Positions 25,813 to 54,187 of a DNA stretch of 64,000 nt are shown piece after piece. The DNA lies in contig JAKCWG010000423.1 of NCBI GenBank assembly GCA_021464415.1, positions 1-64,000 on the forward strand, written 5' to 3'. Origin of the DNA: Lonicera japonica (taxonomy: Eukaryota > Streptophyta > Magnoliopsida > Dipsacales > Caprifoliaceae). Made by a program: the position numbers and the translations under genes. The notes under the pieces were generated by a model that saw nothing but the letters and a program-made list of their open reading frames with translations, was not told where the DNA came from and made no database searches. The first letter of the stretch is position 1. The number at the start of each line of letters is the position of its first letter.

Positions 25813-28240
25813 TGTAACGCCCCATATGTCTCTATTTCACGGAATCACGATACAAGTCGCGTGTAAGGCAAAAGTGTACTTCGGATAGCCATATTTTACT
25901 CCAAAAGGATCTGAATGGCTCAAAGACTTCCAACAAGTTACATTAATATATTTAAGCATGTTAGAATAGTTGTAAGTCATTTCGTGTGGTTCGAGTCAAA
26001 ATCGGGATGTAGATTGCAAGTTTTTAATTTACCCGACTTTATAAATTTTGGATAACTTGGAGGAAGCGTAACTTCTTCGTTCCTCGCCAAATTGAGTTTC
26101 TATTCACTAAGGGCTCTAGATTTTTATGCAATCTACAACTTTCATGTTTTGGCTGAAAGCCAATTCAAGCTCCTACTAGGTCGAAACTGAGCGCGAAATA
26201 GGCGAATCGCTAACAGATGTTCATTCGGTAACATTAACGCGTTGACTTCGATGCATTTCTAGGAATTATCCTTCGGGAATTTGAAAAAGCTTCCTTCTGA
26301 GAAGTTGTAGATCTTCTAATAAGCTTTTCGTGGACATAACGATCATCTCAATCGGACTTTCGAGTGAGAAGTTATGGTCGTTTAAAATTCAGTACAGCAT
26401 GCCCAAAATCAACTGTGAACAGTGACGAAAAATTGAGAACGGGACTTTTATATATGTCTGTTCACCTCCATTCCTTCTCATTTTATCACTTTCACTTGAG
26501 GGCTTCTAAAAAGAGATAAAATATGCGATTTTGGGAGTTTTGAGCATGATTTGAGATCACGACAGTAGCTCTTCCTTCTTCCCAATCACCGAGCATTATT
26601 CATCGTCATCTTCATCATTTTCACCTCTTTCCATGGCTGAAAAATGGGGATAGCTTGTGATTCTCTTGACCCAGCTCATCTCGGCTACGATTCTTCGAGG
26701 GATTAACCCTATATAGGTGGGAACATTATTATTGAAGCTTGTTTTCAAGTTATTATGACAAATTCTTACCAAATCAAACAACACTTAGAGTTTTCACTCA
26801 AAACACACGTTCATGGGGGGTTCGGGCTATTTTATTTCGAATATTTGGTTGATTTACATTACATATAACTTGATTATGATTCTTATACCAAAAGCCCCAA
26901 TTTCAAATGGGTTTTAAGTATTGTGAGAATCCGCAAATGCGACCCCCGGGTCTCGTCCCCGCTCGTTGGGCGTCTGAAGCGTCGGAACTGATTCCGTCGC
27001 TCCATTTGCTTGGAGTTGTTTGATGATTCTTATCATGTGTCCCTACGTCTATTCTAGATGCAAAGGGATTCGTTCAGAGTCGCCAGTACGTTTTACGAGA
27101 AAATGGACAAAAAAGGTTGTGTAAGGGGAAAGGCTACAGATAAGCCTTTCTTTACACATTTGTCTGCGAAACCAGGATTCTATAGGGTTTGGGAACTATA
27201 TTACGGTTTGGGAAGGTGTTAAGCACCCATTCCGCCCTTTCGGTCTCTAGTGGTCTTTATATGTTTATTCTATGTTGAAAAACTTGGATGCTTTTACTGA
27301 CAGTCTACTACTCTTCAAATGAAAACCCTAATTTCTGGGGGAAAACGGGAAAGTGATGAAAACCTTTGTGTTCCGAGATCCGATATTTTTATTTAAAAAG
27401 GTGTAAATACAAGTGACAAAACCTTTTATTTTGAAAGAGTATCCCGTATTATTTCCTCAGATAATGACGGTTTTCTCGTGTTGTGTTTACTTTTGTAAAA
27501 GTTCGGATCTATGTCGGGACTAATTTAATATGGAACTAGAACTCTTTGGGGAGAGTTATCAATCACGTCGCAGTCTATAGAGAAGACAGGATATGTTGAT
27601 TCTAATTCCTAGATAAGTCGTATCAGTCTGGGTTTTGAAAACAGAATTTTATCCGGACGATAACATACTTACTCTTCTGGTTTTGCAAATGGTTTTATCA
27701 GGGTCTTTTGTTTTGAAAACGGTAGACTATTTATAACTTGGCAATAAGTTTATTCAAATAAAACGTGGACAAAACAACAGAAATAAAACAAGTACACAGA
27801 TAGACCTATTTTTCGAGCGCGTTAGGAATCTAGCCCAACCATGTTGCCACTTCGCTTACCAGGACGGGGATCGACCTGCCCGGTCAGGTCGCGGGGTGCG
27901 GGGCAGCGCCCCGTTAGGAAAAAATCGAATTCTAAAAGTTTACAATAAAACTAACATGCGAATATCTTATTTAATTACGAGAAGAAACTTTATTTACCTT
28001 CCCGACGAGAATAATAATAAGAAAGAGAATATAATACGGCAGAGAGATCTCCGGCGATAATAATCTTCTCCTTCTTCAGATATTTCCGAGAATTCGATTC
28101 CAGAGACGGGACACGTCGAGTGTCGGGAATAGATTCGATAATTCTTCAGAGATAAGATGATAAAATGCTTGATAAAATCAGACTAAAACTCAGAATTTCT
28201 AGATTCAAGTTGCTGCCTCTAACCCTTGGGGGGTGTTGGC

Positions 28241-28249
28241 CTATTTATA
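28241..28249 (-). promoter_or_regulatory. TATA box of Ogre-like LTR
   Basis: Minus-strand TATAAATAG in the context GCAGTATAAATAGGCC, at the U3/R position expected for an LTR promoter, directly downstream of the palindrome array. Confidence 0.65.
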
Positions 28250-28264
28250 CTGCTCGGGGAAGAT

Positions 28265-28583
28265 TGTCGCGCGACATTTCCCCAAAAAAGGCAAGTGTCG
28301 CGCGACATATCTGTTTGTCGCGCGACAATCGGCTGAAGTGATGGGTCCTGACACTGTGATGTGTCAGAAAGTGGTTGGTCGGGTGCAGAGAGTGATTGTC
28401 GCGCGACATAGTGGGATTGTCGCGCGACAAGCGGCTGAAGTGATGGGTCCTGACACTGTGATGTGTCAGAAAGTGGTTGGTCGGGGTGCAGAGAGAGATT
28501 GTCGCGCGACATTCCAATGATTGTCGCGCGACAATGTGATATGTCGTGCGACAATCCTTCATAAAAAAGGTTTGTCGCGCAAC
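28265..28583. repeat. Array of TGTCGCGCGACA palindromes upstream of LTR TATA box
   Basis: Seven perfect 12-bp palindromes start at 28265, 28296, 28316, 28397, 28418, 28500 and 28522. Two variants follow at 28542 (TGTCGTGCGACA) and 28572 (TTGTCGCGCAACAA). A ~102-bp unit containing GTGATGGGTCCTGACACTG is duplicated (about 28330-28410 and 28432-28511). On the LTR's own strand the array lies 16 to about 335 bp upstream of the TATA box. Confidence 0.95.
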
Positions 28584-30534
28584 AAACCCCCCCGGGGTAG
28601 TTTCGGATGCTCGGGTGGGTCCCGGGCTCCAAAAACAGTAGTCTCGTAGGTCGTTTAGGGTTCTTGCGGGGGTCACGGATCGGGGTGTCTACAAGTATGG
28701 TTTGCATACGACCCTCATATACAGATACGATAGCGAACAACCACTTTGATATACATATATATGAGGATATATATAGCATTAAAAGTATGATTTGGGTATA
28801 ATTACTTGTGTTTGCGATGTTATTATTGTACTTTGGTTATTATTTTCTTTTTTTATGAGTTTTGCTAACTACTCGCCAGTCCGTAACTATGCTGGGCAGA
28901 TTTATAAGATTATTTTGAGTAAATTAAGTACAAAAACTATATGGGGAAGTTTATATTAAACTTAAAACTTATCAATTATATATTATACTTGCTTGGAGCT
29001 TACATGATAGAAATCTATAAAACTTCCCATACGGATGATATTCTTAAATAAGCCACTAGTTTCAGACTTGGTGACGTGAGTTTAAGTACAACAACAATAC
29101 TACCGTTTGATTTACGGTATATGTATATATATGTATGTATGCACTAGCTATATATGTATACATATGAGACATACCCTTATATGTTGGAACATATATGTTT
29201 TCATGGTTTATGCAAGTTTGTTATTTAGATATGAATGAGATTTCTTATGCGTTGTTTGAGGTTTCATATATATATATATATATATACATGGGTTTGGGCA
29301 CTTTAACATACCATTTGGTTATTACCTGTGGCGTATAGCTTGGAGGCTATGCGAGTTATGAGATTGTCCTTGGGGAACATAACCTATGTGATATTTGGAA
29401 AAGTAAGTTTGATATATATATATATATATATATCTGTATGCTGGTGTATGCACATGTAAAATGTATCTTTGAGTCAAGCATATAGAATTATGATATTCCA
29501 TGCTTTCGTAAACGATAATTATGATCTTTATACTAGTTTGGGTATATTAAGTATGTGTTTAAAATAAAGATAGCTTTTTATTACTTCTATTCTTGTTGGC
29601 TAGTTGATGGGTTCGAGATGAACCTTATTATTAGTTATCCGGCACAATTACTCGCTTATGGGCTTGTTACTTGGATGATTTGATTTGTACACATACATGG
29701 TTGCGCTAGTCTATGGTAGGTCCCAGGTTTGGTTTCTAAAGGTTGGGGTCGTAAGTTAGGACTGAGTGCCCCTGGGTGAAAGACCCGAAACCATGCACAA
29801 AAACGAACTGGAGGCCCTACTGCCGCGTGGGTGAAAGGCTACGAAATGAAGACCTGGTAGTACACTTGACTAGTTACAAGTTGTTGAGATAATCGCCGAG
29901 AGCGAGATATTTTTTAGACGATATGATTGTGGTGCCCCGTTGTATAAACTAACCAACGGTTTTTTATATATATATTTTTTCTTACCAAAGGCTATTTGTA
30001 TCTGAATGATACTTCTTTTACCGTATGTATGAGGTATATGACTATTATATGTTATTAGCTAGCTTTCAATTGTATTTTCAATTGGCGTATATCTTATGAT
30101 ATTTCGGGGATGGGAAAGCATTGGCATGCATATCTTAATATGATTTTTATTACAAAAGAAAATTACTTTCATTACTACACCTCGCACGCATTCTTTCTAC
30201 AACGCATTTTATATATCTATATTAAACCTTATAGTTCCCACTGAGCCCATGTTTGACTGATTCCCATTTTTCCAAATCGATTTTGGAGGTATATCTCGGG
30301 GGATGGCACGATTGTGAAGTCTATAACCATTTATTACCCTAGACATTTATAGTCGTCCTTAAATGACTTATCTTTTACTAATTTTGAATATCATTTGTAT
30401 AATTGAATTTTAATTTGATTAAATGTATAATTATTGAAAATGATGTATAGCATTTTAACTTGGATTGGGACCTCGTTGGAGGATTTGTATTGTATAGAAA
30501 TTGTATGAGTGATGCTTATGTGTGGAGTGTATCC

Positions 30535-31930
30535 TGTAGGTCAGAAAATACCCTAGAGGGGGGTGAACAGGGTTTTTAAAACTTAATGAGTTTTTTAAAA
30601 TCAATTTTAAAATATTCGATGTCTATGTCAATCAAGCAAACAATAAACAAGGATAATTCCAATCACAAGGTGCAAGTAACACAATATAAGAGTTCAAGAG
30701 TTAGAAAGATTGAACCGATCAAAGTCGAAGACTTTTTGTCTACACAGTTCGGCTTGTTAGCCCCTACTCCGCGCTCAGTTAGTACCCCGAGAAATTTCAC
30801 TATAACCGATCTCCTTCTGGGTGAAAATCAAACCTCTACAAGTGTATTCTTCTCACACACTTTTACAAGTATTAAATCTCTCTCAATACTCACACAAGAA
30901 TTCACTCTTGCTATCTTAAGAGATAAACCTCTCTTAATGTTTGAAAGAAATAATTTGGTGACTAACACCAATGTACAATAGCTCAATAGTGTATGAAGAT
31001 TACAACTTAAGCTCACACTAAGAGATATCAAATTTGATCAATAAAATATAGCTCAAAATAAAGATGATTGATCAAGAGAAATGTTCTTGAATCTTTGAAT
31101 ATTGAATGTAAATGAATAGAATAGTGTAGGAATGATTCAAGAGTGTTTAAATAAGTCTTAGATGGTGTATATATAGTCTAAGACACCATATGGCCGTTTG
31201 GAGGGAGTTGGTAAAAGTTAGGTACCAAAAATGGTAAAAAATCAAAACTCCAACGGCTAGTTTCTAGGCCATCAGTCGACTGAGCAAAGCTGATCAGTCG
31301 ACTGAGCAAAGCTCATCAGTCGACTGATGGTCTCCTCTGGTCTGCTGCCAGATTGACCAAAAATCCCATTTTTCACACTTTTGCAAATTAACTCAAAAAT
31401 CAATTTTGAGGATAGGGGATGTTTAAAATTGATTTTCTAAGACTTCTATCATTGTTTTTGTAACAAAATTCATTCATAAAAATTTATAGTGAATTTTTCA
31501 AGATGACTAGTTTTCGGTAAAAATACGTTTTCAAGGATAAAACTAGTTTTGATCAATCTTGTCAAGGTTAAATCATTTTATGAGCCATGTAATTGAACAA
31601 TGATATCTTTTACATAAAATCTAAGTACTCACTTAATTATGAACACCAATGAATCTTCGAGAGCTTTGTTTCTATCTTCGATTCTATTCTTCCTTGGCTT
31701 TTGGTACTTCATAGAGATGCCATTGAATGTGTGTTGACAAGAGTTGTGTGAGATGTAAAACTTTGATTGCAATACTTTGTAGATGAATGATCTTGATCCC
31801 GACTTTTCGGTTAAGTCCACGTGTGATCAATTTTATTGTGGCTATAACTTAAAACATCAACTACGTTAAATTACATGAGATTAAGTTTATTGTTATTATC
31901 AAAACAAGATTAATGACTTTCAAGTCAACA
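30535..31930 (-). repeat. 3' LTR of SIRE-like element
   Basis: 1396 bp. On the minus strand it starts TGTTGACTTGAAAG and ends CTGACCTACA. A TATA-like TATATATA lies at 31168-31175. It carries three TCAGTCGACTGA palindromes (31272, 31294, 31316) where the other LTR has one, which accounts for nearly all of the 45-bp length difference. Confidence 0.92.
31272..31327. promoter_or_regulatory. Triple TCAGTCGACTGA palindrome, 22-bp period, in LTR
   Basis: Three perfect 12-bp palindromes start at 31272, 31294 and 31316, separated by GCAAAGCTGA and GCAAAGCTCA. They lie about 97-152 bp upstream of the LTR TATA box on the minus strand. The 39201-40551 LTR keeps a single copy at 39938-39949. Confidence 0.85.
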
Positions 31931-32485
31931 ATCTCCCCCTTTTTGATGATGACAATAAATTAATGTGTGTTTGCGATTAAGATCATTAGTTGAGTTTTCT
32001 CAACGGGAAAACTCCCCCTCAAACTATGCATTAAAGAGAATATGGAATAAAGCAAGCATGCATAAGTAAATATACAGATCTTAATAAAGAGACTTCAAAT
32101 AAAGTTTAAACCAAATACTTAGAGTTAGGCACAATTTAAAACTGGGAATGATAAACCATAGAAGTTCATGGAAAAACCAAACATAAAAAAAAACAAAAAA
32201 AAAACTTAAAGGAGTTCATAATTAAACTGATAAAACTCAAAAAGTATGTACCAAGCACTCTAGCACACTTATTTCTCCCCCTTTGTTATCAACAAAAAGG
32301 AGAGAACCCAATGACTATTCTTGTGGGTCTTGTGGCCATTGACCCCAACCTTGATCAACTTGATGCGGGTTCCAAACCGGAAAGACATGCTCTGGATGGT
32401 AGCGAAAAAAGGCTTATTCATGAGCTCTTTGTCGATCCTCAATTCGATTGAATCGGTTCGTCATGTTGGTCGATAGAGCTTGAAC
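31931..32485 (-). other. 3' untranslated part of SIRE-like element
   Basis: Between the third ORF and the 3' LTR. It contains the polypurine tract next to the LTR and A-rich stretches; no frame. Confidence 0.6.
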
Positions 32486-32588
32486 TTAACCCGATAACCC
32501 TTGAATTGCTTGAAGAAAGGTGGCATTTGAGGATTGGCTACGGCCTTGAGAGGTAGTGGTTTCAGGGAGTTCGGAACTTTCTCCTCCC

Positions 32589-32619
<31 letters not shown>

Positions 32620-33567
32620 CACCCACTTCTTCGGATGAGCCATCACTTTCATCACCACTTTCATCTCTATCTCTAGGATCATTGGGAGTCCATTGTCCAT
32701 ATACCAAGTTGTATTTCATCAACCGAATCACCTTGGCGCTATAGGTCTCCTCACTTGTGGGAATGATAACATCGACCTCGTCTTCGAGTCGGATATTGTA
32801 AAATTTGAACAGTTGAGTGAGGGCCATTCCATAGACCAACCCTTGCCTTTTTCGATTAGTGATCTCAAAGAGATGATGGAACATAAGGCTAGCAAAGTCC
32901 AATCAGTGTCCCATTACTATCGCCCATACCAAGAATAGCTCCAAGGCATTGAGTGCAGCACGACTACCACGCCTTGGAATGATCGAGTACCCAAGGATTG
33001 AATGTATGAGACGGGCATCAAGTTTAAGCATTGAGGCCTTGATTTCTCCTTGCGTATTGCGAAATCTACGCTTGAGTATGATTCTTTTTGCAGCATTCTT
33101 ATTAAAACTGAGAAGATCCCCAAAGTTGGATGGAACTTCCGTTACATTATCAACGAGGAATTTGAATATTTCGACTAATTCGGCTTTGTTAAAACTAATT
33201 TGTTGCCCATTCAAAAGTGTAACAAGACGAGCCTTGTTGGGACGCCCATTGTCAAGAACCGGATTGTGTAGTTTTGCATAGAATAGCCGTATAAGCCGTG
33301 GGTACACATTTTCACGGATGTTCAAAAATCTATGATTCCTTAATTTTGAAACAATCCAGCAACATTCAAACCATTTAAAGCGAATAATTGAAAGTTGAAT
33401 TGTTTACCTTCGACGATAGCCCGTGTTGAATAGTCGTTGTTGAAATTTGCTTCGGCTTCATTGGAGATGAACAAAGGTAGTAGTGGAGCTTGAGGTGGTT
33501 GTGCCGATGATGAACATACTTGTGGTATGCTCTTTCGTGGGCGACGGGAGCGAGATGGTTGAGACAT
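32486..33567 (-). pseudogene. Third ORF of SIRE-like element (plant retrotransposon ORF after pol), broken
   Basis: Starts MSQPSRSRRPRKSIPQV (33567) with a basic, serine/proline-rich N-terminus. The 33567-33340 frame is shifted relative to 33325-32903, which begins MNIRENVYPRLIRLFYAKL. A TGA at about 32903 then separates the last part (to 32486), which contains GLVYGMALTQLF, an acidic run of about ten glutamates and a serine-rich end. The middle resembles the 'putative plant transposon protein' family often found downstream of pol in plant LTR elements; its function is unknown. I see no clear signal peptide or membrane span to support an envelope role. A CT-rich leader and palindromes precede it. 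Confidence 0.7.
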
Positions 33568-34072
33568 AACTATGGAGATTGGTGAAAGAAGTAGGTTTTA
33601 AAAAATTAGGGTTCTTAGGAGATTTGAAGATTTTGGGGTGAAAATTTGTGTGATTAAAGGGAATATGTGGGAAATAGGTTGGATGGAGTAGTAAGATAAG
33701 TTTTGGTAAAGAAATTTGGTGTAAGATAAAGTTTTGAGATGAAAATTGATAATGATGGCTAGGGTTAGGGTTTGAGAGAGGTTGAGATGGGTTTGAGAGA
33801 TTTTGAGATGAAATAGATGAGATTAATGTGTGATTTAATGTTGGAAGTGAAAATTTTTTGGTTTAGATGGAGTTTAGATGATGAAAATAGAGAATATATG
33901 ATGTTTATGAGGGTTTGGGATGAGTTTGGTGTGAGTTTTCTCGAAATGGAGAAGAGAGAAATGAAGGGAAAACAGGGGAAATAGAATGATATAGTGTAAC
34001 TGTTGTCCAGCACTGCTCAGTCGACTGATGAACCTCCTTCAGTCGACTGATGGTTCCTGATCAGTCGACTGA
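33568..34072 (-). promoter_or_regulatory. Candidate internal promoter and leader for third ORF
   Basis: Three TCAGTCGACTGA palindromes start at 34017, 34039 and 34061, again spaced exactly 22 bp. Some 20 bp downstream on the minus strand lies a TATA-like CACTATATCATTC (33984-33996). About 400 nt of CT/CA-rich, G-poor sequence follows, including AAACCCTAACCCTAGCC, before the ATG at 33567. This is the look of a plant 5' leader and suggests separate transcription of the third ORF. Confidence 0.5.
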
Positions 34073-34302
34073 CCACCTATTCTGCCATGATTTTCTAGAA
34101 TGTAGCATTTTAAGCCATGATCACCTAGAATGAGCAACTTTACAGCATTTTTGCTATAAGAAAGATATTAGTACATCAAATAAAATGTAATAGAGGCATT
34201 AGGTACACAAATACATAAATCATATTTAATCAACCAACACATAATTTTTGTATGCTTTAGATACAAGCATTAATGATCAATATACATGAAAATTTTGGTC
34301 AA

Positions 34303-37275
34303 CTAGATATCACATGCTCTAGTCATACCAATTTCACGTCGAATACAGCTAAAGCGATCATCGGAAAGTGGTTTAGTGAAAATATCCGCAAGTTGCGATT
34401 CGGTGCCAACGAATTCGATGTCAACATCACCTTTTTGCACATGATAACGAATAAAATGATATCTTATCTCAATGTGCTTAGTACGTGAGTGTTGTATGGG
34501 GTTCTTGGTCAAGCTAATAGCACTTGTGTTATCACATTTAATGGGAATGTGGTTAAGACTTAATCCGAAGTCTTCTAGTTGTTGTTTAATGTATAAAGTC
34601 TGAGCACAACAACTTTCGGCCGCCACATACTCGGCTTCGGCAGTTGAAAGGGCCACCGAGTTTTGTTTCTTGCTTGACCAAGATAGTAATGCTTGTCCTA
34701 GGAAATGACAAGTGCCACTAGTGCTTTTCCTATCGATTTTGCAATCGGCAAAATTCGCATCGGAATAACTAATCAAGTCAAAAGAGTTCTCTCTTGGGTA
34801 CCACAAACCCAAGGAACTAGTACCGGAAAATCCATTTTACGGCAAGTAAATGTGACTCTTTAGGATCCGCTTGGAATCGTGCACAAAGACATACACTGAA
34901 CATGATATCCGGCCTAGAGGCCGTCAAATATAATAGACTACTGATCATATCTCGATATTTCTTGATGTCTATACTTTTACCTATCTCGTCTTTGTCAAGC
35001 TTCAATGTTGAACTCATAGGAGTGCTCATGGATTTGGCACCTTCCATGTCGAATTTCTTCAAGAGCTCCTTCACGTACTTCTCTTAATTAATGAAGATGC
35101 CTTCTTTGCATTGCTTCACTTGTAATCCAAGGAAGTAGTTCATCTCTCCCATCATGCTCATTTCGAATTCCTTTTGCATACATGTGGAAAAGTCCTTACA
35201 AAGATTTTCGTTAGAAGAACCAAATATAATATCATCAACATAGATTTGTACAAGTAGCATGTCATTGTTATGATTTTTGATAAATAAGGTAGTATCAATT
35301 TTACCTCTAACAAAACCATTGTTAATAAAAAATGAGCTAAGTCTATCATACCATGCTCTAAGTGCTTGTTTAAACCATATAATGCTTTCGATAATTTAAA
35401 TACATAATCCGGATAAACGTGATTTTCAAAACCGGGAGGTTGTTTCACATAAACTTCCTCTTCAATAAAACCATTTAAGAAAGCACTTTTCACATCCATT
35501 TGATATAATTTAAAATTCTTAAAACATGAATAAGCAAGTAGTATGCGAATGGCTTCTAAACAGGCTACGGGTGCATATGTTTCTTCATAATCAATGCCCT
35601 CCTCTTGATTGTATCCTTGGGCAACAAGTCTAGCTTTATTTCTAACAATTACACCACTTTCATCCTTTTTGTTACGAAATACCCATTTAGTACCTATAAT
35701 GGTTTGATCACTAGGTTTGGGAACAAGTGTCCACACTTTTTTTCTCTCAAATTGATTGAGTTCTTCTTGCATAGCCATCATCCAAGATTCATCTCGTTCG
35801 GCTTCAATAATGTTCTTAGGCTCATATTGAGAAACAAATGCCACATTATTGCATACATTTCTTAATGAAGATCTAGTCATAACTTTACTAGATGGCTCTC
35901 CAAGAATTTGATCAATAGGGTGGTTGGACACAAATTTTCAACTCCTAGGCAAATCATTTGAGTCTTGCTCGGTTTTGTTTTCTAACTCCTTAGGAGGAGC
36001 TTGAGCACTCGATATTTCTTCCTTAGATGTATCATTAATTTGAATATCCGAGATCTTTTGGATAATTTTAACATCATCATCGGAACGTACTATGGGTGAG
36101 AAAGAATTTGACTCATCAAATATAACATGCATAGACTCTTGGACTACTAAACTTTTCTTGTTATAAACTCTATATGCTTTACTATTAGTGGCATACCCAA
36201 GAAAAATTCTTTCATCGGATTTAGCATCAAATTTACCTAAGTGATCACGATCATTCAAAATAAAACATTTGCAACCAAAAACCTTAAAATATGCAATATT
36301 TGGTTTATTGTCATTCCATAACTCATAAGGAGTCTTATCTAACTTTTTACGAATGATAATATAATTAATCACATAGCATGCGGTGTTAACGGCTTCCGCC
36401 CACAAATACTCTGGTAAAGAATGTTCATTAAGTATAGTCCTAGACATCTCTTGAAGAGATCTATTTTTCCTCTCAACAACACCATTTTGTTGAGGAGTTC
36501 TAGGTGCCGAAAAATTATGATCAATACCATGCTCATCACAAAAGTTCTCAATATCAACATTGTCAAATTATCTACCTCTATCACTACGAACATGCACAAT
36601 AGAGATGCCTTTTTTATTTTGAACTTTTCTACAAAATTTAGCGAAGGCATGTGGAGTTTCACTTTTGTGGGTGAGAAAGAACACCCAAGTGAGTCTAGTG
36701 TAATCATCAACAATAACAAGAGTGTACAATTTGCCACATAGACTAGCAACCGAAATAGGACCAAACAAATCAAGATGCAACATATCAAGTGGTCTAGATA
36801 TAGTAATATCCTTTTTAGACTTGAACGATGATTTGTGTTGTTTACCAAGTTGACATGCATCACAAATTTTATCTTTAACAAATTTGATTTTAGGCAATCC
36901 TTTAACAAGCTCTTTCTTAGACAAAACATGAATTAAATCCATATTAGCATGTCCTAGTCTCATATGCCATAACCAAGATACATCATTTATAGCGGATAAG
37001 CATTTAACATCTTGTTGTGATAAATCATCAAGCTCAAGAGTATACACATTGTTAGTTCTATATGCAACAAGTAAAATGGAATCATCACTAACATTCTTAA
37101 CAATGCAACGATCGAATTTAAAAATAACTTCATAACCCTTATCACATAATTGACTAATACTAAGTAAATTATGCTTCAAACCATCAACTAATATAACATT
37201 ATCAATGCATGTAGAATGCTTACCAACCTTACCTATACCGATGATTTTGCCCTTGGCGTTGTCCCCGAAAGTCAC
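34303..37275 (-). pseudogene. SIRE-like pol: integrase, reverse transcriptase, RNase H (broken)
   Basis: Minus strand, in order. A pre-integrase segment runs VTFGDNAKGKIIGIGKV to [14 protein letters not shown] (37275-36950). Integrase follows with the CDACQLGKQHKSSF finger, DDYTRLTWVFFL and the usual catalytic core (about 36900-36370). RT (35931-35100) has [42 protein letters not shown] and, after a frameshift near 35365, IYVDDIIFG (about 35228-35250). RNase H (35074-34303) has SYSDANFADCKIDRKSTSG and LSTAEAEYVAA, then KHIEIRYHFIR. Several stops and shifts. A stop just before 37275 separates it from gag. Confidence 0.9.
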
Positions 37276-37620
37276 ATTCCCTCCTCACTTGAGAATTAGA
37301 CTTAAGAAGTTGTTCTTGTCTCCCGTCATGTGCTTTGAGCAACCACTATCCAAGAACCACTTGGTTTTGCTACCCTTGGCTTTCAAGCATACCTACACCA
37401 TGACTTTGAGTAACTTCTCCTTTGGTACCCAAAATGTGTTGGGTCCCTTTGGGTTAGCAAACATAATGGTTCCTTTTGGAACCCAAGCAAGTTTTCTTTT
37501 AGGGAAACCTTCATTTCGATAGAAACAATGATCCACATGATGAGTATTTCTACCACAATATGAGCAAAGATGAGTGGGATCATGAGGTGCATATGTTTTA
37601 AAGAAGTTTTTGTAATCCTT

Positions 37621-39144
37621 TTAGTTGTCAATTTGGTTGTAACCCAAATCGACTTTGTCAAATACACACCTTTGCATTCCTAATAGTTTATCCAAATTAT
37701 CCCTACCATTGGTGAATTTGGCTAAGCTATTAGTTAGATCATCCACTTGATCTTTTAATTTGACATTTTTTACTACAAGTGTGTTTGGAATTTCCTTTTC
37801 CTTTCCTTTCTTCAAAGTATTGATTTCATTTTTCAAAACCATGTTTTCTTTCTCAAAAGTTTCACACTTGTTAGAAATTATCAAATTCTCCTTTTTGAGG
37901 CTTGCAAACTTCTTAGATAGATTTTCAAATTTATTATGCAATTCCTCAAACATTTCATATAACTCATCATAGTCATTTTCATCATGAGCATCATCATTTA
38001 TAGAAACATTGTCATTACTAAATGAATCATAAATGAAGTCTACCTCATCGTCTCTTGCCATAAGGCAAAGATTTGTCGTCTCCTCGTCGCTAGAGTCGGC
38101 ATCGGACTCACCCTCTTCGGAATCACTCCAAGTCCCCTTGAGGGCATGCCTTACTTGTTTGAAGGCTTTATCTCTTTTATCTCTTCTCTCCTTTCTTCTA
38201 ACCGAGCAATTGGTTTTGAAGTGTCCTGGTTCATGGCAATGGAAACATTTCTTGACTTCTTCGTTTTCAACTCTTGGTTGAATTGATCGATCAATGTTCC
38301 TCTTTGATGAAGAACCAAAGTTATTTCCTTTTTCTTGAAACTTCTTCTTATTAGCTAGAAATTTCATGAAGTTTCTAGAGAGGAGAGCCATGTTATCGTC
38401 ACCGCCCATTGACTCTTCATCATCCTCTCGTTGACTTGCCTTGAGAGCAAGAGTCTTCTTGGCTTTTGAGTCAACTTCTTCTTCTCTCTCCAATTCCTTC
38501 TCATGGGTTTTAAGTGAACCCAATAGTTTGTCCATGCTTAGCGTTTTAAGGTTCTTGGCTTCTTGAATAGCCGTTACTTTGGGTCTCTACTTCTTGGGAA
38601 TAGTTCTAAGAATCTTTCGAATCTTGTCTTCATTAGAATAAACCTTTCCAAGGAGATCTAAAGCATTAGTAATAATGAAAAACCTACTATACATAGAAGC
38701 AAGTGATTCATTAGGCTCCATTTTGAAAAGCTCATAATCATGAACAAGCATATCAATATTGTCATCCTTGACTTGTGAGGTTCCCTCATGAGCAACCTCT
38801 AATTTGTCCCATATTTCTTTTGCGGTTTTACAACTAAAAATTTTGTTGTATTCGTCCATAGTTAATGCACAATGTAAAGAATTTAAGGCTTTAGCATTAA
38901 ATTGGATTTTCTTAATGTCATACTCATCGTATTCGAAAATTGATTTAGGAGTGACATTACCCCTTTTATCGGTTTTGGTAATCTTATATGGTCCAATGAG
39001 TGTAACCCTCCATTGTTCAAAATCACTAGCTTGAAGAAAAGTACACATGTGATTTTTCCAATAGCTATAATTTTTGCCATCAAATAGGGGTGGCCTAGTG
39101 GTGGAAGAACCTTCGTTAAGTCCGGTTCCTTGATAGATAGACAT
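37621..39144 (-). pseudogene. SIRE-like gag with CCHC zinc knuckle, one premature stop
   Basis: Starts MSIYQGTGLNEGSS at 39144, just downstream of the primer site. The UBN2 region has PPLFDGKNYSYWKNHM and EIWDKLEVAHEGTSQVKD. At about 38587 a TAG interrupts the frame where the family usually has tryptophan. The same frame continues as 38535-37621 with the zinc knuckle CFHCHEPGHFKTNC, a long acidic stretch (ESDADSSDEE) and a coiled-coil-like region. It ends at a stop codon at 37621-37623, in frame with the pol start region. Confidence 0.88.
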
Positions 39145-39200
39145 GATCGTAAACTCTAAGATTGTAAAATCAAAACAAGAGTACAACATCTGATACCAAT

Positions 39201-40551
39201 TGTAGGTCGGAAAATACCCTAAAGGGGGGTGAATAGGGTTTTTAAAACTTAATGAGTTTTTTAAAATCAATTTAAAAATATTCGATGTCTATGTCAATCA
39301 AGCAAACAATAAAGAAGGATAATTCCAATCACAAGGTGCAAGTAACACAATATAAGAGTTCAAGAGTTAGAAAGATTGAACCGATCAAAGTCGAAGACTT
39401 TTTGTCCACACGGTTCGGCTTGTTAGCCCCTACTCCGCGCTCGGTTAGTACCCCGAGAAATGCCACTATAACCGATCTCCTTCCGGGTGAAGATCAAACC
39501 TCTACAAGTGTATTCTTCTCACACACTCTTACAAGTATTTAATCTCTCTCAATACTCACACAAGAATTCACCCTTGCTATCTTAAGAGATAAACATCTCT
39601 TAATGTTTGAAAGAAATGATTTGGTTACTAACACCAATGTACAATAGCTCAATAGTGTATGAAGATTACAACTTAAGCTCACACTAAGAGATATCAAATT
39701 TGATCAATAAAATATAGCTCAAAATAAAGATGATTGATCAAGAGAAATGTTCTTGAATCTTTGAATATTGAATGTAGATGAATATAATAGTGTATGAATA
39801 ATTCAAAAGTGTTTAAATAAGTTTTAGATAGTGTATATATAGTCTAAGACACCATATGGCAGTTTGGAGGGAGTTGGTAAAAGTTTGGTACCAAAAATGG
39901 TAAAAAATCAAAAATCCAATGGCTAGTTTCTGGGCCATCAGTCGACTGATGGTCTCCTCTGGTCTGCTGCCAGATTGACCAAAAATCCCATTTTTCACAC
40001 TTTTGCAAATTAACTCAAAAATCAATTTTGAGGATATGGGATGTTTAAAGTTGATTTTCTAAGACTTCTACCATTGTTTTTGTAACAAAATTCATTCATA
40101 AAAATTTATAGTGAATTTTTCAAGATGACTAGTTTTTGGTAAAAATACGTTTTCAAGGATAAAACTAGTTTTGATCAATCTTGTCAAGGTTAAATCATTT
40201 TATGAGCTATGTAATTGAACAATGATATCTTTTACATAAAATCTAAGCACTCACTTAATTATGAACACCAATGAATTTTCGAGAGCTTTGTTTGTATCTT
40301 CGATTCTATTCTTCCTTGGCTTTTGTACTTCATAGAGATGCCATTGAAGGTGTGTTGACAAGAGTTGTGTGAGATGTAAAACTTTGATTGCAATACTTTG
40401 TAGATGAATGATCTTGATCCCGGCTTTTCGGTTAAGTTCACGCGTGATCAATTTTATTGTGGCTATAACTTAAAACATCAACTACGTTAAAATACGTGAG
40501 ATTAAGTTTATTGTTATTATCAAAACAAGATTAATGACTTTCAAGTCAACA
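39201..40551 (-). repeat. 5' LTR of SIRE-like element
   Basis: 1351 bp, directly repeated relative to 30535-31930. It carries one TCAGTCGACTGA palindrome (39938-39949) and the same TATATATA promoter region (about 39832-39840). Confidence 0.92.
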
Positions 40552-40770
40552 TATCCAACTGTTGTGTTTGAGATTTCATTTGTATGAAAATGGTTTTCAA
40601 ATTTTACAAGGCGGATTGTTGTTTAAACGAATTTCACATGCCGAAATTTTTATAAAACAGGTTTTCAAACTGATCGAGTTTTATCCAAGAAAAAGATTTT
40701 TAAAAAGTTGTGACTTTTATATTTTGAACCCGCCGTCGCGCACGTTATCCGTGATTAACCAAGTCCCGGA

Positions 40771-41471
40771 GGTGAAAATCTCGGAACGGGATTCGGGGCA
40801 TCACAACCTTCGGACTTGGAATGATTCCAAAACTAAAACCCAGTTTCTGAAGTCTCACCATTTTCTGCCCTATTTGACATTAAATCTTCATACTTGCTTA
40901 CACCTTTGTCTTGCTTCCCCTCTTTCTCCACCCGCTTGCTCCCTTTTTTAATTATTGTATCATCACTCTCCCCTTCTTGTGTACGTAATTAGCCTTCAAC
41001 GATATTACCTCTCCTCAATTATTTTCGGCTGCCTAACATAAGGCCCAGTTAACTGCTTGGTCCCGAAGCTTATTTTGCCATTACTTATGACTGAATTAAA
41101 CTCGCCTCCACTGACTAGTGGTGAAAATCTCAGAACGGGATTCGGGGCGTCACAACCCTCGGACTCGGAATGATTGCCAAACTGAAACCCAGTTTTTAAA
41201 GTCTCACCATCTTATGCCCTATTTGACATTAAATCTTCATACTTGCTTACACATTTGTCTTGCTTCCCCTCTCTCTCCACCAACGCCTGCTCTATTTTTT
41301 TAATTGTTGCATTATCACTCTCCCCTTCTTGTGTACGTAATTAGCCTTCAACGATATCACGTCTCCTCGATTATTCCTCGCTGCCTAACATAAGGCCCCA
41401 ATCAACTGCTTAGTCCCGAAGCTCATTTTGCCATTGATTATGACTGAATTAAACTCACCTCCACCGACTGG
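40771..41471. repeat. 349-bp tandem duplication spanning the gypsy LTR/LINE junction
   Basis: Copy 1 is 40771-41119, copy 2 about 41120-41471. Both start GGTGAAAATCTC, contain the last 35 bp of the solo LTR and ~310 bp of the flanking LINE, and differ by scattered substitutions. The duplication therefore happened after the LTR inserted. Confidence 0.9.
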
Positions 41472-41881
41472 TCTAATCCTCGCCTGGTCGACTGAATCAG
41501 ATTCATACTCATTAACCCCTTATTAAAGCACTCTATCCTTTTCCCTTTCCCCCCATTAAATACCACATTCTTAAAGCTGCCTTCATTTTTCTCACGTGTC
41601 ATCGTATGAGTAATCTTTTCTTGACCTCTATCACTACCGGCTACATTTACGATACACCATTCAAAACTACACATTTTCTCTCCATCTCATCTTAGATAAA
41701 TTTTGCATCGATTAAACTTGCCCAGGAACGGTGGGAATTTATATTTACTTCTCTCCTGGAGGTTCAAATTAGACAGAACTTTGAGTCTGATCGGGAATTC
41801 TTCCTCCCCATAGACATGTCGATTTCTGCCATGATTTATCTTTGCCTCCAATTTTAATTTTTGCATTGAAAATTTGCTCAA
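41155..41881 (-). mobile_element. 5' part of the split LINE (ORF1 start)
   Basis: The minus-strand frame starting MSKFSMQKLKLEAKINHGRN (41881), and a second frame (41674-41438), are probably the degraded ORF1 of the LINE whose ORF2 lies at 23430-25143. This rests on orientation and on the target duplication ACCCT joining the two parts; I do not recognise the ORF1 sequence itself. Confidence 0.5.
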
Positions 41882-48475: not shown

Positions 48476-49802
48476 TCTCTAGATCTGCTTACTATTGCAG
48501 ATTTTTTTTTTACTATGCTACTCAGATCCGATTGATTTTTCTATAGTTTCTTTAATCGGGTTGAAGTTTTTCTTCTATCAAGTAGTGTTAGATTACATGT
48601 ATGTATGTGTGTAAATCAATCGGACCCAATGATTTCGTTTTCCAATTCCTAAAATCAACAGCCCTTGTATATATATATATAATATATATATGTATGTATG
48701 TGCATATGTATGCTGTTTAATCTGCGGAGCAAAATCTGAACATCCAACTTTGGCCCAAGAATGGTAAAAATACAATTTTGATTCATGGAGGTTGAATTGT
48801 ATCTTAGCTTTATAAAATAAGATTTGATATATTTACCTTTTAGTTAATTTATTGGATAATCAATCGGAAAACATTAGAATATGTATCAGTATTTAAGTTC
48901 AAGATAGGGTATTAAGTACTAAAAAATTTCACTCCAAAATATTAAAATACAAAAAATATGTATCTATACTTAAGTTCAGCCAGTAAGTACTTCATAATTT
49001 CATTAAAAAATGAAAAAAATTGGAAAATAAATAGACACAGAGAACTCTGTTTCTAAACCAAAAATGAAAATTGAGTTTATAATATAATAAGCTATACTTG
49101 TCTTCCAATTAATCTATTGCATAATCAACTTAAAGACAATAAAATATGTTATTAAAGTTCAAGATGGGCCAAGACATCATAATAATTCATTCAAAAATGC
49201 AAGAACAAAATAAATTAAACGATAACTGATCGGGGTCATTGACCTTGTATACTTGTTGATGTTTTTTAATAAAGTCATGGCTTAATTTGATTTTCAATAA
49301 CTTCAACTTCAACTCCAAATTATTCCATTCTAGCACCAATTCCTTCCATTCTTCTCAAGTATCTATTAATTCCTTTCATTCTTCTCAAGTATTTATTAAT
49401 TCCTTTCATTCTTCTCAAGTATCTATAAAATGATAATATAAATTATTAATAAAATAACACAAATAAGAACTCTCTACAATATAAATTAGCATGATAAATT
49501 ATACTAATTTTTTAATACATCAATTAAAAAAAATAATAAATTTATTAAAATTTACAGAAATATTAAAGAGTCTATTTCTTAAAATCTATTAAAGTCTATA
49601 TGAATTTATTAAAATATATGAATTTCCATATAATTTAAAATAATTTATAAATTTTAAAAAATTCACATATTTTAAAAAATTTATATATTTTTTTAAAATT
49701 TAAATTAAATACACGTCTTTCCTTTCATTTCATCAGATAGAAGGTGATAAAGAGAGAGACTTCTCGGTACCTTGAGGGAGAGAACGAAGAGTGAAAAAAA
49801 AT

Positions 49803-52800
49803 ATGTATAGCGAGGGATCTTTCTGGCCACCTTCAATTGTGACAATTGCATCTATTGCTGCTACTGCTGCTTCTATCGTCCTTACCTTGTATCTGATTCA
49901 CCGCAACTCTCTTCATAGAACGAGTCAAATTCCACCTACCCCAACTTCACTTCTCAGCACCACTACTACTACTGCACCATCTACTTCTCCTGCAGTAGAT
50001 CTATTATTGGGGGAATACGAAGTATTCTTGAATTTCTGTGGCCAAGACACTCGTAAAGGTTTCACCGATTTTCTCTACACCTATCTTCATGGGGCCGGTA
50101 TTCGTACTTTTAGGGATGATAACGAGCTTCGCGTCGGTGAAGAGATTGGCCCCGAGCTTCTCAAAGCTATCAAGGGTTCAAAAATCTCGATCCCTATCTT
50201 CTCCAAAAGTTATGCTTCCAGTAAATGGTGCCTCCGTGAGCTAGCCGAGATGGTAGAGTGCCAGTTGAATGGGACACAAAAGATTTTCCCTATTTTTTAC
50301 GATGTTGAGCCTTCTGGCGTGAAACATCAAAGTGGAAGTTACGAGAAAGCCTTTCACGACCACAAGAAGGATTTGAGTTTGGATGAAAAGACGGTCCAAC
50401 GATGGATGAACGCTTTAAGAATAGTTGCAGAATTGAAGGGACTGGAATTGAAAAAAGAAACTAATGGGTAAGGATGCGTCATCTTTTTTTTTTTTTAAGT
50501 TTACTTATTAACCTTTGAATACTAAATGCTTAATATTGAAGGTTGAATCCAAACTCTGAGAAGTGTTTGTTTAAATTTAATATTAATCATTCACTGTGGT
50601 TAATACCTACTAATGATGAATGCTTAATCATTTAAAAGAATAATTGTTAAAATAATAGAAAGAGTGTTGTGGTGAATTCGAAAATCGAACGAAATTACCC
50701 TGTTTCAGTTTGGGGTGTGCTAGTGTTTAACATAACTGAGGACTCAAAAATAATATTATTCACAATCACTAGTGAGAAAACAACTCTTAGAGCCATTATG
50801 AATGTTGGGTCTATGTATAATATAATTACAATCGTAAGAGTTCATATTTTTTTTCACCAAAATAAGTAGGAGCAAACATAGAGTTATTATTTTTGTGACC
50901 AAAACAAGTCTTGCGTTAAAATTTATCTTTTATAAAAAGAAAATATATGAAAACCGAATAAAACCGAGCCGAAAAGTTTGGTTTAGGCCTTGGTTTGGAA
51001 GGTTTAGAAAGCAGACCAAAATCGAAACCGAATTTTCAAATTCGGCTTTGATTGAGTCTCCCTAATTTCCACCTCAACCGAAACCGAAAACATCCCTAGA
51101 TAGACCAATTCTTCCAAACATAGGGGGAGGGGAAGGGGGGAGGGGAGGGCATAACATGGGGATATTCACAGTTACAAATCTTGCTTGGGGAGGATATAAC
51201 TTATAAGCCACCATTTGATCGCTGTAGCTACTGCTTGGGTCTCATTATACACTATTTTCCTTTGATATTTATTATTCTTTTCTAGGCAAATTAACTTTTC
51301 CCTTTTTATATGGGTTATATATGTATGTGGTAGGCATGAAGGAGAACTAGTAAAGAAGGTTGTTCAAGATGTGTTGCTTGCGTTGAAGAAGAATTTCACA
51401 CAATTGCCTGACAACTTGGTTGGACTAGATGATCACGTTATAGCCATGAAGGAATTACTAAATGTCGACTCCACTGGAGTAAGGGTTGTTGGAATTCATG
51501 GAATGGGTGGCCTAGGCAAGACAACTATTGCCAAAGTCATCTACAACCAACTATGTGAGGGGTTCGAATGTTGTTGCTTCCTTGAAGATATTCGAGCAAA
51601 TTCAGATCACCGGAACGGTCTTGTCAATTTGCAAACCCAACTTCTGTCTAAGATCAGAAAGAGGGAAGTCGGCAAAATTAACAATGTTGAAGAAGGAATC
51701 AACGACATCAAAGACGCAATTGGCATGAAAAAGGTTTTCATTGTTCTAGATGACGTGGATGATAAATATCAATTTGATAAACTTGTTGGAAAGTGCAATT
51801 GGTTTGGTGCAGGAAGTAGGATCATAGTGACAACAAGAAATAAAGAGGTTCTGGATAAACTCGAAGCAACTTGTCAGATAGAAAATCTACGGGATGTATA
51901 TGGGAGTTATGAACCACATTTGATGAAATTCAATCATGCCCTTGAATTGTTTAGCAGGTATGCTTTCATGAGGGAATCTCCTCCAGAAGATTATGGTATC
52001 CTTGCTCAGAAAGTTGTATCTAGCGCAGGAGGACTTCCTTTGGTTCTTGTAACTACAGGGTCATTATTATTTGGAAAGGACAGGGCTTTATGGGAAGAGA
52101 AATTGAGGAAGCTAGAAGAAATACCTCATGAGCAAGTCCTTGAAAAATTGAGAATAAGTTTCGATGCTTTAGATTACGAGCAAAAACAGATATTCCTTGA
52201 TATTGCATGTTTCTTCACTGGAAAAGATCTAATAAATCCTTGTTACATGTGGGATGCTTGTAGATTTTATCCGAGAGACGGGCTTAATGCTCTTTTCCTT
52301 AGGCATATGGTAAAAATTGAGGATGATAATAAGTTGAGGATGCATGATCATCTAAGAGACCTTGGTAGGCAAATAGTTCGTGAAGAAAATATGACTGAGC
52401 AAGGGGCGCGTAGCAGGTTGTGGAGTCGTGAAGATGCCTTGGACCTATTCGAGAGTCATATGGTACGTAGAGTGCATCATCAATTTTAGCCTTCTTATTT
52501 AGTATTTATTATTTCCTCATTCATGTAAATGCAAATAATATTCTTTCGAAACTAGAAGATGTATTACCAGGTGTTTTGACCGTCACATTATTCATTTGAA
52601 TACATGTTTTTTTTTTTTTTTTAAACAGGTAACAACAAAGGTTGTAGCTCTCAATCTTAACATAAGGCAGGACTCGGAAGATTGTAGCCAACGTTTTGTC
52701 AGAGAAGATTTTGAGCAACTACGAAATCTAAGGTTTCTCAAATTGGGTTGGGCAGACCTTGATGGAGATTTCAAGCAACATCTTTCAAAGTTAAGATGGC

Positions 52801-54187
52801 TTAAATGGGAATGCCCTGGAAATTATTGGCCAACCAATTGTCACTTGAAAAATCTTGTTATTCTCAATCTGTCATGGTCTAAAGTCACAGACAACTGGAA
52901 GGGTTGGAGTGAAATCGAGGTCTTATAGAATATGCATCTGTTGTTGTTTCCCTTGTCGCATTATATTCATATTCCCCTTGTAATTGACTTTATTTTCTTG
53001 TTTTACAGAAAGCAAAAGGGTTGAAAGTTCTAATTCTCACCAAGTGTCGTGGCTTAAGGAGAGCTCCCATCTTTTCCCAATTTTCAACTTTAGAGAGATT
53101 GAGTCTTAGAGGTTGTGAAAATTTGGAAGAAATTGACCCATCTATTCAGGATCTAACAAATTTGAGAGTTCTAGACATGTCCGGTTGTTATAGCTTAAGA
53201 ACATTTGACTGCTCTGCATTTTCAGCTTTAGAGACATTGAAGTTCGGTGAGTGTACAGAGCTATGTACACTTGATGGTCTTGAACAATTAGAATCGTTAA
53301 GATACTTGGATTTGAGTGGTTGTGAGAGTCTCGAAATATTGTTGGATTTGTCGAAATGCAAGAAGTTAGAAAAAGTAGTTATGATTTGGTGCCTGGAGCT
53401 AACTCAGATCCAAGGCCTAGATAGATTGGAGTCCCTTCAACTTTTGAATATGACAGCTTGCGAATTCATAGAAAGATTACCTGGCCTATCGAACTTGAAA
53501 ATGCTAAAAGAACTACATCTAGGTTCGTGCAAGAAGTTGCTTGAAGTTGATGGCCTTGAATTTTTGGAATCCTTGGAATATTTGAACATGTGCAAGTGTA
53601 TATCCATAGAAAGGCTACCTGACTTATCAAACTTGCAAAAGCTAAAGAAGTTAATTCTTTGTCATTGCAAGAAGTTACGTGAGGTTAGGGGCCTTGGAAT
53701 TTTGGAAATGTTAGAGAGACTGGACTTGTCGAACTGCCCATCTCTGGTAGAAGTCCCGGATCTTTCGAACTTGCAAAATTTAAAGGAACTATTTATTAGT
53801 GAATGGGATGATTTAACTGAGATTAGGGGACTTGGGGAATTGAAATCCTTAGAATTGTTGAACATTTCTAAATGCAGCTCGATTGAACAGTTGCCTGATT
53901 TGTCAAATCTAAAAAATCTAAAAGAAATATATGTTTCTGACTGCGAGAAACTAACTGAAATCGGAGGACTTGAGGAATTGATGAAATCACTAGAACGGTT
54001 GGATGTATCTGGATGCAACTCACTAGAGAATCTTCCATACCTGCCAAACACAGAGATATTGGGCAGAAATTCCACTGGTATATCTCAATTTTCTGTTGAA
54101 ATAACATTGTATCTTTTAAATTGGATTTTTTTAATGATACTTCCTAATTATAATCCTCTCTCTATTCTGCATAATCCTTGGTCTTAG
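49803..54187 (+). CDS. TIR-NB-LRR immune receptor (L6-like) with N-terminal anchor
   Basis: Intracellular disease-resistance receptor; TIR domains of this class have NADase activity on activation. Exons: 49803-50467, 51334-52462, 52629-52919, 53009-54187 (1087 aa, all GT-AG, phase consistent). I chose the ATG at 49803; the open frame begins at a GTG 12 bp earlier. Residues 12-32 form a hydrophobic anchor, as in flax L6. TIR about 71-205, with the expected catalytic glutamate in KWCLRELAEM (E146). The usual FRGxDTR motif reads FCGQDTR. NB-ARC: P-loop GMGGLGKTT (about 278-286), kinase-2 VFIVLDDVDD, RNBS-B GSRIIVTTRN, GLPL, FLDIACFF, MHD (about 558-560). LRRs from about residue 600, with repeated LxxLxLSxC units. 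Alternative end: splicing from 54077 to 55398 would stop at 55423 and give 1059 aa. The gene looks intact. Confidence 0.93.
50468..51333 (+). other. TNL intron 1, with G-rich tract
   Basis: 866-bp intron. It contains an ACCGAA-rich degenerate repeat (about 50948-51090) and a G-run block at 51123-51149 with five runs of three or more G on the coding strand. Confidence 0.7.

Follow-up and report, generated by a model that had tools for sequence, protein, structure and literature searches.

Palindromic RM boxes were reported by Bousios et al. in 2010 (PMC2829016) for 13 Sireviruses, in which they lie in the long terminal repeat (LTR) upstream of the TATA box, with one box consensus per element. 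In that report, all of the env-bearing, box-carrying Sireviruses (9/9) have the same box in the LTR and in the linker, 77 of 79 linker boxes stand upstream of env, and the boxes are called Sirevirus-specific and absent from classic copia retrotransposons. Here, we analyzed 64,000 nucleotides of Lonicera japonica DNA (contig JAKCWG010000423.1, positions 1 to 64,000; the window), which hold a decayed Sirevirus-type Ty1/copia retrotransposon with the palindrome TCAGTCGACTGA repeated both in its LTR and between pol and its third open reading frame (ORF3), and we compared it with related elements of the same genome. The window arrays are a further case of the described Sirevirus feature. New here is the occurrence of the two-place layout in Ty3/gypsy elements, namely three Athila-like types and one Tat-like type, so that five element types with four palindromes among them display it; no report of a shared palindrome in gypsy elements was found in the literature searched, which took in few subscription papers.

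Three further systems bear on how such arrays may be read. VANC proteins bind to motifs repeated within the element that encodes them (PMC5735166), the antisense gene23 of the maize Grande element has a promoter of its own and its product is nuclear (PMC7264820), and a sunflower Athila protein with the PF20167 domain is predicted to be nuclear (PMC11728184). The role of the third ORF of plant retroelements is unproven and the name envelope is disputed (PMC3414828, PMC7264820).

Palindrome arrays in the window and in its copia family

The copia element is delimited by its LTR pair, target-site duplication, junctions and domains:

30535..40551, minus strand: Sirevirus-type Ty1/copia retrotransposon, decayed
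30530-30534 and 40552-40556: target-site duplication TATCC (plus strand), 5 bp, flanking the element
39201..40551, minus strand: 5' LTR, with one palindrome
30535..31930, minus strand: 3' LTR, with three palindromes
31933-31940, minus strand: terminal polypurine tract AGGGGGAG, then AT/TG (TGTTG) at the 3' LTR
39187..39200, minus strand: 5' junction ATTGG and primer-binding site TATCAGATG (consensus from PMC2829016)
31272..31327, no strand: LTR array, three TCAGTCGACTGA at 22 bp (31272, 31294, 31316)
34017..34072, no strand: array between pol and ORF3, three TCAGTCGACTGA at 22 bp (34017, 34039, 34061)
39938..39949, no strand: lone TCAGTCGACTGA in the 5' LTR, at the position matching the 3' LTR array
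31168..31176, minus strand: LTR TATA box CTATATATA, starting 95 bp past the array; in the 5' LTR, at 39834-39842
33988..33996, minus strand: TATA-like CACTATATC, starting about 22 bp beyond the ORF3-side array, with poor conservation from copy to copy

The domain order is that of copia elements (gag, integrase, then RVT_2), with the gag, integrase, RVT_2 and SH3 domain matches each in a separate piece, and pol and ORF3 are broken across frames. The two LTRs differ at 46 of 1353 aligned bases (Kimura two-parameter distance 0.035). An earlier note, made from the letters of the window, had called the element SIRE-like, and this label holds, since the polypurine tract followed by AT/TG, the presence of three such tracts near the 3' LTR (AGGGGGAG at 31933-31940, 32012-32019 and 32275-32282) and the CA/ATTGG junction fit the description in PMC2829016; the primer-binding site TATCAGATG matches the Sirevirus TATCAGAGC at 7/9 positions. 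Just beyond the 5' LTR, a sequence of about 350 bp is present twice in tandem, the two copies being 89% alike (40771-41472).

The six palindrome positions given in the earlier note and the 22-bp spacing within both triplets are exact; a seventh site, at 39938, had been missed. Counting at most one mismatch, the window holds seven matches to TCAGTCGACTGA where shuffles give 0.11, which rules out pure chance. As an LTR feature the triplet is true of the 3' LTR, whereas the 5' LTR, the one that would drive the element, has a single site and, at the array, a 44-bp gap equal to two 22-bp units.

Nor is an exact 22-bp period, described earlier as a common phase, a rule of the family. Four sites at 22-19-22 recur in three (L003, L006 and L009) of nine other own-family LTR loci and, among the matches listed, before ORF3 at C1:8942883, C1:11618489 and C1:16485586, so a conserved 22-bp phase was rejected. 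Both window triplets look like separate losses from the 22-19-22 plan, each of one site plus seven bases. The site plan common to both places is real, while the shared triplet is not a family rule. As the own-family loci L001-L015 were retrieved via the palindrome itself, they are no measure of how well it is conserved. The spacers of the two window arrays had been noted as different, and on the same strand they indeed look unrelated; with one array inverted, however, one end is 91% identical over 23 bases, of which 12 are the palindrome itself.

TATA-like runs were scanned for within 150 bp after the last exact site. The earlier observation that both arrays precede a minus-strand TATA-like sequence is correct for the window (CTATATATA and CACTATATC), but on the ORF3 side it extends to one of three other own-family copies (L005 yes, L008 and L011 no). 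After the LTR-side array a TATA-like run was found in 9/11 own-family LTRs, 3/4 downstream stretches of gypsy family B and 3/3 Tat LTRs; gypsy family A LTRs gave 0/2 within 150 bp and, on a wider scan, CTATAWAWA about 160 bp after the array. In the LTR, TATA follows the array; the Tat type also has one after the array of the antisense gene described below.

Some observations on the palindrome stand apart. Site CAGTCGACTG (31272-31283) departs from the Vitis Sirevirus box CGGTCGACCG (PMC2829016) only at the two outer CpGs, each altered by a transition, which is what decay of methyl-CpG would produce; the Vitis-type box in pairs had no match (0) in this genome. At G000:C1:10201286-10211038, four palindrome pairs with an exact 3240-bp period look like a tandem array of a unit bearing the Sirevirus palindrome. 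The IMG/VR database returned no match to the pattern and no relatives of the reverse transcriptase or of the ORF3 piece.

ORF3 of the window element is present in three pieces:

33340..33567, minus strand: ORF3 start, ATG at 33567, in-frame stop at the end, basic cluster near the N-terminus
32903..33403, minus strand: ORF3 piece matching PF20167 (Transposase_32, putative plant transposon protein), E 7e-8, 33 bits for a cut-off of 45
32486..32902, minus strand: C-terminal ORF3 piece, acidic, no Pfam match

An open copy of the family (L011) scores 44.7 bits against PF20167 and a public protein (P0001) 45.7 bits. Close proteins also come from Lonicera macranthoides (P0002, P0003), one of which, P0003, is 95% identical to a family A ORF3. 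In nine PF20167 proteins, from the starts used, the highest 19-residue Kyte-Doolittle mean was 0.80-1.74, with basic clusters and no clear membrane helix.

The same layout in Ty3/gypsy elements

The genome of the window was searched for PF20167, 150 of 1699 candidates being scored and 30 loci cut, none of them picked by palindrome. Of the 30, 25 carry a perfect repeated dyad ahead of the ORF, which is of AAGATCGATCTT type in 15 (family A) and of CATGATCGATCATG type in 10 (family B); in two others (L029, L032) the upstream pairs are of a dyad resembling CGGACCGGTCCG, and no dyad array stands upstream in the remaining three (L027, L031, L038). The dyads of L029 (L029:395-545) form pairs at 21 bp with a period of about 61 and are close to the CGG-CCG boxes of Bousios et al. 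Three of the genome's PF20167 matches, at G000:C294:57560, 67840 and 78132, lie about 10.3 kb apart in one orientation, which points to tandemly arranged elements.

Because the sorting into A and B used the ORF-side palindrome, the downstream side is the test. All downstream stretches carry the palindrome of their own ORF side (A 2/2, B 4/4), with no A sites in B, no B sites in A and no own-family (window copia) sites in either. When the four palindromes were tabulated against stretches of the four families, every stretch held its own site, and the sole foreign one was a single TGTCGCGCGACA in one of the four B downstream stretches. The A downstream array lies in an LTR: the 551 bases around it have a second copy, about 100% identical and in the same orientation, 10.7 kb upstream (LTR copies at C1:51959454 and C1:51970199, flanking the ORF). 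Both families are Ty3/gypsy, family B by the order RVT_1, RT_RNaseH, Integrase_H2C2 and rve in L066, and family A by RVT_1 then RT_RNaseH in L065, where the integrase core falls outside the stretch read; they are here called Athila-like. The fifth type to display the layout, also Athila-like, has an ORF3 67% identical to that of L038, with internal stops; five exact AAGATCGATCTT lie downstream of its ORF and two exact plus four decayed ones just after pol, in pairs 20-21 bp apart.

The Tat-like type came from a second, unrelated LTR in the window:

28240-28693, minus strand: part of a Tat-like gypsy LTR, beginning TGTAGACACCCC
28265..28533, minus strand: seven TGTCGCGCGACA, mostly in pairs 20-22 bp apart; site and spacers are those of a Tat-like gypsy element
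28240-28249, minus strand: TATA TATAAATAGG, 15 bp after the last TGTCGCGCGACA

The TGTCGCGCGACA pair pattern occurs 8297 times in the genome. At C1:9830961-9848411, two TGTCGCGCGACA arrays with the same three spacers stand 17.2 kb apart, and the parts of this element that were read encode reverse transcriptase, two RNase H domains and integrase; L067 carries the domains of the Tat lineage (RVT_1, RT_RNaseH, RVT_3 as second RNase H, rve). In the LTR of the element, the last site is 15 bp from TATAAATAG. Its internal sites are at L054:1007, 1030 and 1060; on the opposite strand they are followed by 10 bp, CTATATAAA, then an ATG and a short first exon, and beyond a presumed intron the antisense ORF (L059) matches the plant mobile domain (PMD; E 2.6e-17). 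Among the matches listed, further internal pairs with AATGGCCACAT as spacer are at C1:4190628, 4823705 and 10002242, at a distance of about 1.6 kb from an array of LTR type. As judged from this arrangement, the two-place rule extends to an extra gene in antisense. PF04195 as a route to more antisense families gave no repeated CpG dyad in the two stretches beside its high-copy matches (L061, L062), whose ORFs, by eye, are not Retand-like, and two stretches beside PMD matches (L063, L064) had no repeated CpG dyad either.

Conservation, copying and the proposed reader of the sites

Conservation was measured on loci retrieved through PF20167; columns were counted as palindrome if at least one sequence had the exact site, which favors identity a little. 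In family B, sites are 100% identical, bases between sites 82% and 200-bp flanks 91-92%; in family A the values are 98%, 89% and 86-89%. With a longer core, sites remain at 99% against 81% between them in B, and at 97% against 89% in A. The CpGs follow the same pattern, being kept at 594/594 within sites versus 1112/1323 outside in B, and at 1764/1828 versus 1318/2199 in A.

The spacers tell of copying. They were compared with shuffles uncorrected for relatedness, and in the A, B and Tat comparisons part-sites and the outer arms of extended dyads stayed in the flanks. The B spacers of the two arrays are homologous beyond shuffles, with z of 18.5 and 13.0 in the same orientation versus 11.9 and 7.2 inverted; since the same orientation beats the inverted one, the array is read as copied between the two places. 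Family A showed no difference (21.3 same, 20.3 inverted), a comparison confounded because the dyad runs into the spacer. The LTR and antisense-side spacers of the Tat type have no likeness (81 and 73 of 300 shuffles reach the mean, with one antisense-side unit), and the own-family inner spacers agree at 3.20 of 10 positions in the same orientation (2.31 when shuffled) and at 4.07 inverted (2.71). In family B the arrays are clearly copies of each other in which the sites stayed fixed while the spacers drifted, so that copying and, apparently, selection are both at work.

These results bear in two ways on the earlier proposal of selected binding sites rather than a simple copy. Covariation, with five types having the same palindrome at both places and four palindromes among them, together with the better conservation of sites than of the bases between them, upholds the first half, the sites being predicted ones. 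As to the second half, the sites are indeed fixed, but the B spacers are homologous in the same orientation, family A is confounded, and the own family has a weak likeness that is stronger inverted.

The closest sites stand 22 bp apart in the own family (19 between pairs; 21 in L013), 20-22 bp in B, 18 bp in A, 20-21 bp in the further Athila type, 21 bp in L029, 20-22 bp (also 31) in Tat LTRs and 23 bp (also 30) at the Tat antisense gene. A spacing of about two helical turns suggests that the two sites of a pair would place their dimers on the same face of the helix.

We tentatively put forward, at slightly less than even confidence, that the palindrome arrays peculiar to each family, both at the LTR side and ahead of the extra gene, are sites for a dimeric regulator, predicted to be the product of that gene, which would activate both transcription units. 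A protein whose dimeric state is suggested by the dyad symmetry would bind the palindrome, presumably in pairs about two helical turns apart, and once bound would activate or protect from silencing. In the copia and Athila types this regulator would be the PF20167 protein, in the Tat type the PMD protein. Copying of arrays between LTR and linker, of the kind seen in B, along with gain and loss of repeat units, would keep both places in step, while the site itself would be held by its reader. That the extra ORF encodes this reader is likely, on the analogies of VANC, the Grande antisense gene and the Athila PF20167 protein predicted to be nuclear. A further step, that in both superfamilies the extra ORF encodes a sequence-specific self-activator forming a private, VANC-like positive-feedback circuit, and that the so-called envelope gene of these types is really a regulator, is possible though rather doubtful. 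If the arrays are cognate sites of the extra-ORF protein, each family would have its own lock and key, with several independent pairs in one genome.

Several observations weigh against this proposal. Within 150 bp, a TATA-like run follows the ORF3-side array in 2/4 own-family copies and in 0/27 A and B loci. The downstream array of B, of the 67% type and of the L038 type is placed by its position after the ORF rather than from a map of LTR pairs. The ORF types that fall outside the two-place layout are three, having sites only downstream, only upstream or not at all. In the first, three out of three L038-type copies read (L058, L069, L071) have 18, 9 and 10 exact AAGATCGATCTT downstream of the PF20167 ORF and no array upstream; the 3.4-3.8 kb or so read upstream of this type holds neither array nor pol frame, these being possibly partial elements, and one of the three copies has a single CATGATCGATCATG upstream (L068). 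In the second, L029, the ORF-side array is present and none was found downstream (L055), and in the third, L027 and L031, PF20167 ORFs have no array on either side read. The case that the earlier note had named as speaking against selected binding sites, two places that do not match, occurs more as the absence of an array than as a mismatch. In the frames of L027, L029 and L031, a strongly hydrophobic stretch also precedes the start used, and these types may encode an env-like membrane protein. The structure models of two PF20167 proteins are poor (mean predicted local distance difference test scores, pLDDT, of 41 and 35), and a DNA-binding fold was not seen in them; a sequence search of the PDB gave weak matches, the best at E 0.035. 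In the Tat type the extra gene belongs to another protein family; a remote kinship of PF20167 and PMD was considered and dropped at an hhalign probability of 0.2%, a weak comparison as it had a single PMD sequence on one side. Among published elements, four Sireviruses have boxes without env (PMC2829016). Finally, over the whole genome, the central CpG of the own-family palindrome is intact in 1498/1901 pairs (about 0.89 per site if independent) compared with 496/614 (0.81) for a neighbor CpG. This retention was discarded as strong evidence of selection, the difference being small and the pattern demanding more intact bases on the palindrome side; as site CpGs are kept only a little better than their neighbors, old copies would decay and selection, if any, would act on the live lineage.

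L027, L029 and L031 form a second class of PF20167 ORFs, which lacks arrays in both places and may be membrane-linked.

A serious rival, if on balance an unlikely one, is a host transcription factor that reads the palindromes, each family having captured the sites of a different factor and the array having been copied between the two promoters. Dyads near TATA are typical of many host dimeric factors, and family B shows an array copied between the linker and the LTR side. Moreover, the comparison of the boxes with PLACE by Bousios et al. mainly gave sites of stress-related factors (PMC2829016). The presence of four different palindromes in one genome fits it less well, only those of A and B having a core (GATCGATC) in common and the others lacking it. 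By itself a host factor also leaves unexplained that linker boxes are found only in env-bearing Sireviruses (PMC2829016), which a regulator in place of an envelope would explain.

DNA methylation or RNA could instead be what matters, the CpG dyads serving as a CpG-island-like platform or forming hairpins that feed or escape small-RNA silencing. We consider this quite improbable. Published boxes delimit predicted CpG islands (PMC2829016), a CG stands at the center of all four palindromes, site CpGs are retained in the A and B alignments, and the ORF3-side array has a CpG observed/expected ratio of 0.65 for 0.25 in the linker; the window LTR array, however, reaches 0.62 compared with 0.55 for the whole LTR, hence no island, and a CpG platform needs no exact, family-specific sequence.

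Neutral tandem-repeat dynamics, with the arrays as a functionless by-product of slippage and LTR/linker copying, would account for site numbers that shift by whole units (one versus three in the LTRs of the window element), for the homologous B spacers and for site decay across the genome as a whole, but they are very unlikely, since slippage alone would hold spacer and site alike whereas sites are 98-100% identical and the bases between them 82-89% in the same alignments, and since the LTR and antisense arrays of the Tat type have common sites without spacer likeness (one antisense-side unit).

Neighboring features and comparison with known systems

Elsewhere in the window, plus-strand ORFs at 49776-54187 match TIR, NB-ARC with a winged helix (Roq1-like) and leucine-rich repeats, and look like a TIR-type plant immune receptor gene. 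A piece of another copia element (Pol_BBD, gag_pre-integrs, rve) lies at 2630-4069, and an inverted repeat of about 365 bp, 81% alike, at 59078-60179, with TTC/AAG-rich simple repeats in or beside its arms.

The RM boxes of PMC2829016 are the same as the window arrays in that a palindromic box stands in the LTR upstream of TATA and again upstream of the third ORF. The window box, CAG-TCGA-CTG, differs in having no CGG-CCG signature, a trait it shares with their Tnd-1, and the gypsy elements found here have the same layout. The spacing of sites in pairs, as described here, is not given in the passages of that paper. Under the RM-box criterion of at least eight copies in 3' LTR plus linker, the decayed window copy has 3 + 3 = six, and the family plan of 4 + 4 would reach eight.

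As plant envelope-like genes do in Sireviruses and Athila-type elements, the third ORF follows pol; in contrast, no clear membrane helix is seen in those types that have both arrays. Extra ORFs of plant LTR retrotransposons likewise lie between pol and the 3' LTR, in sense or antisense (PMC7264820, PMC11963269, PMC11728184), and a palindrome that also occurs in the LTR is not mentioned in the passages of these three papers. The antisense gene described here matches PMD, whereas TRP28 (PF04195) is found in the antisense ORFs of Retand.

The VANC/VANDAL system differs in being a DNA transposon whose motifs are given as non-palindromic and for which binding and hypomethylation were demonstrated, whereas binding to the present arrays is a prediction. 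It is alike in having an element-encoded protein and short family-specific motifs that recur in its non-coding DNA, among other places ahead of an element gene (PMC5735166, PMC10398659), and in motif change through tandem-repeat turnover (PMC5735166). The VANC-like trait found here is that each family has a motif of its own, which recurs at several non-coding places within an element.

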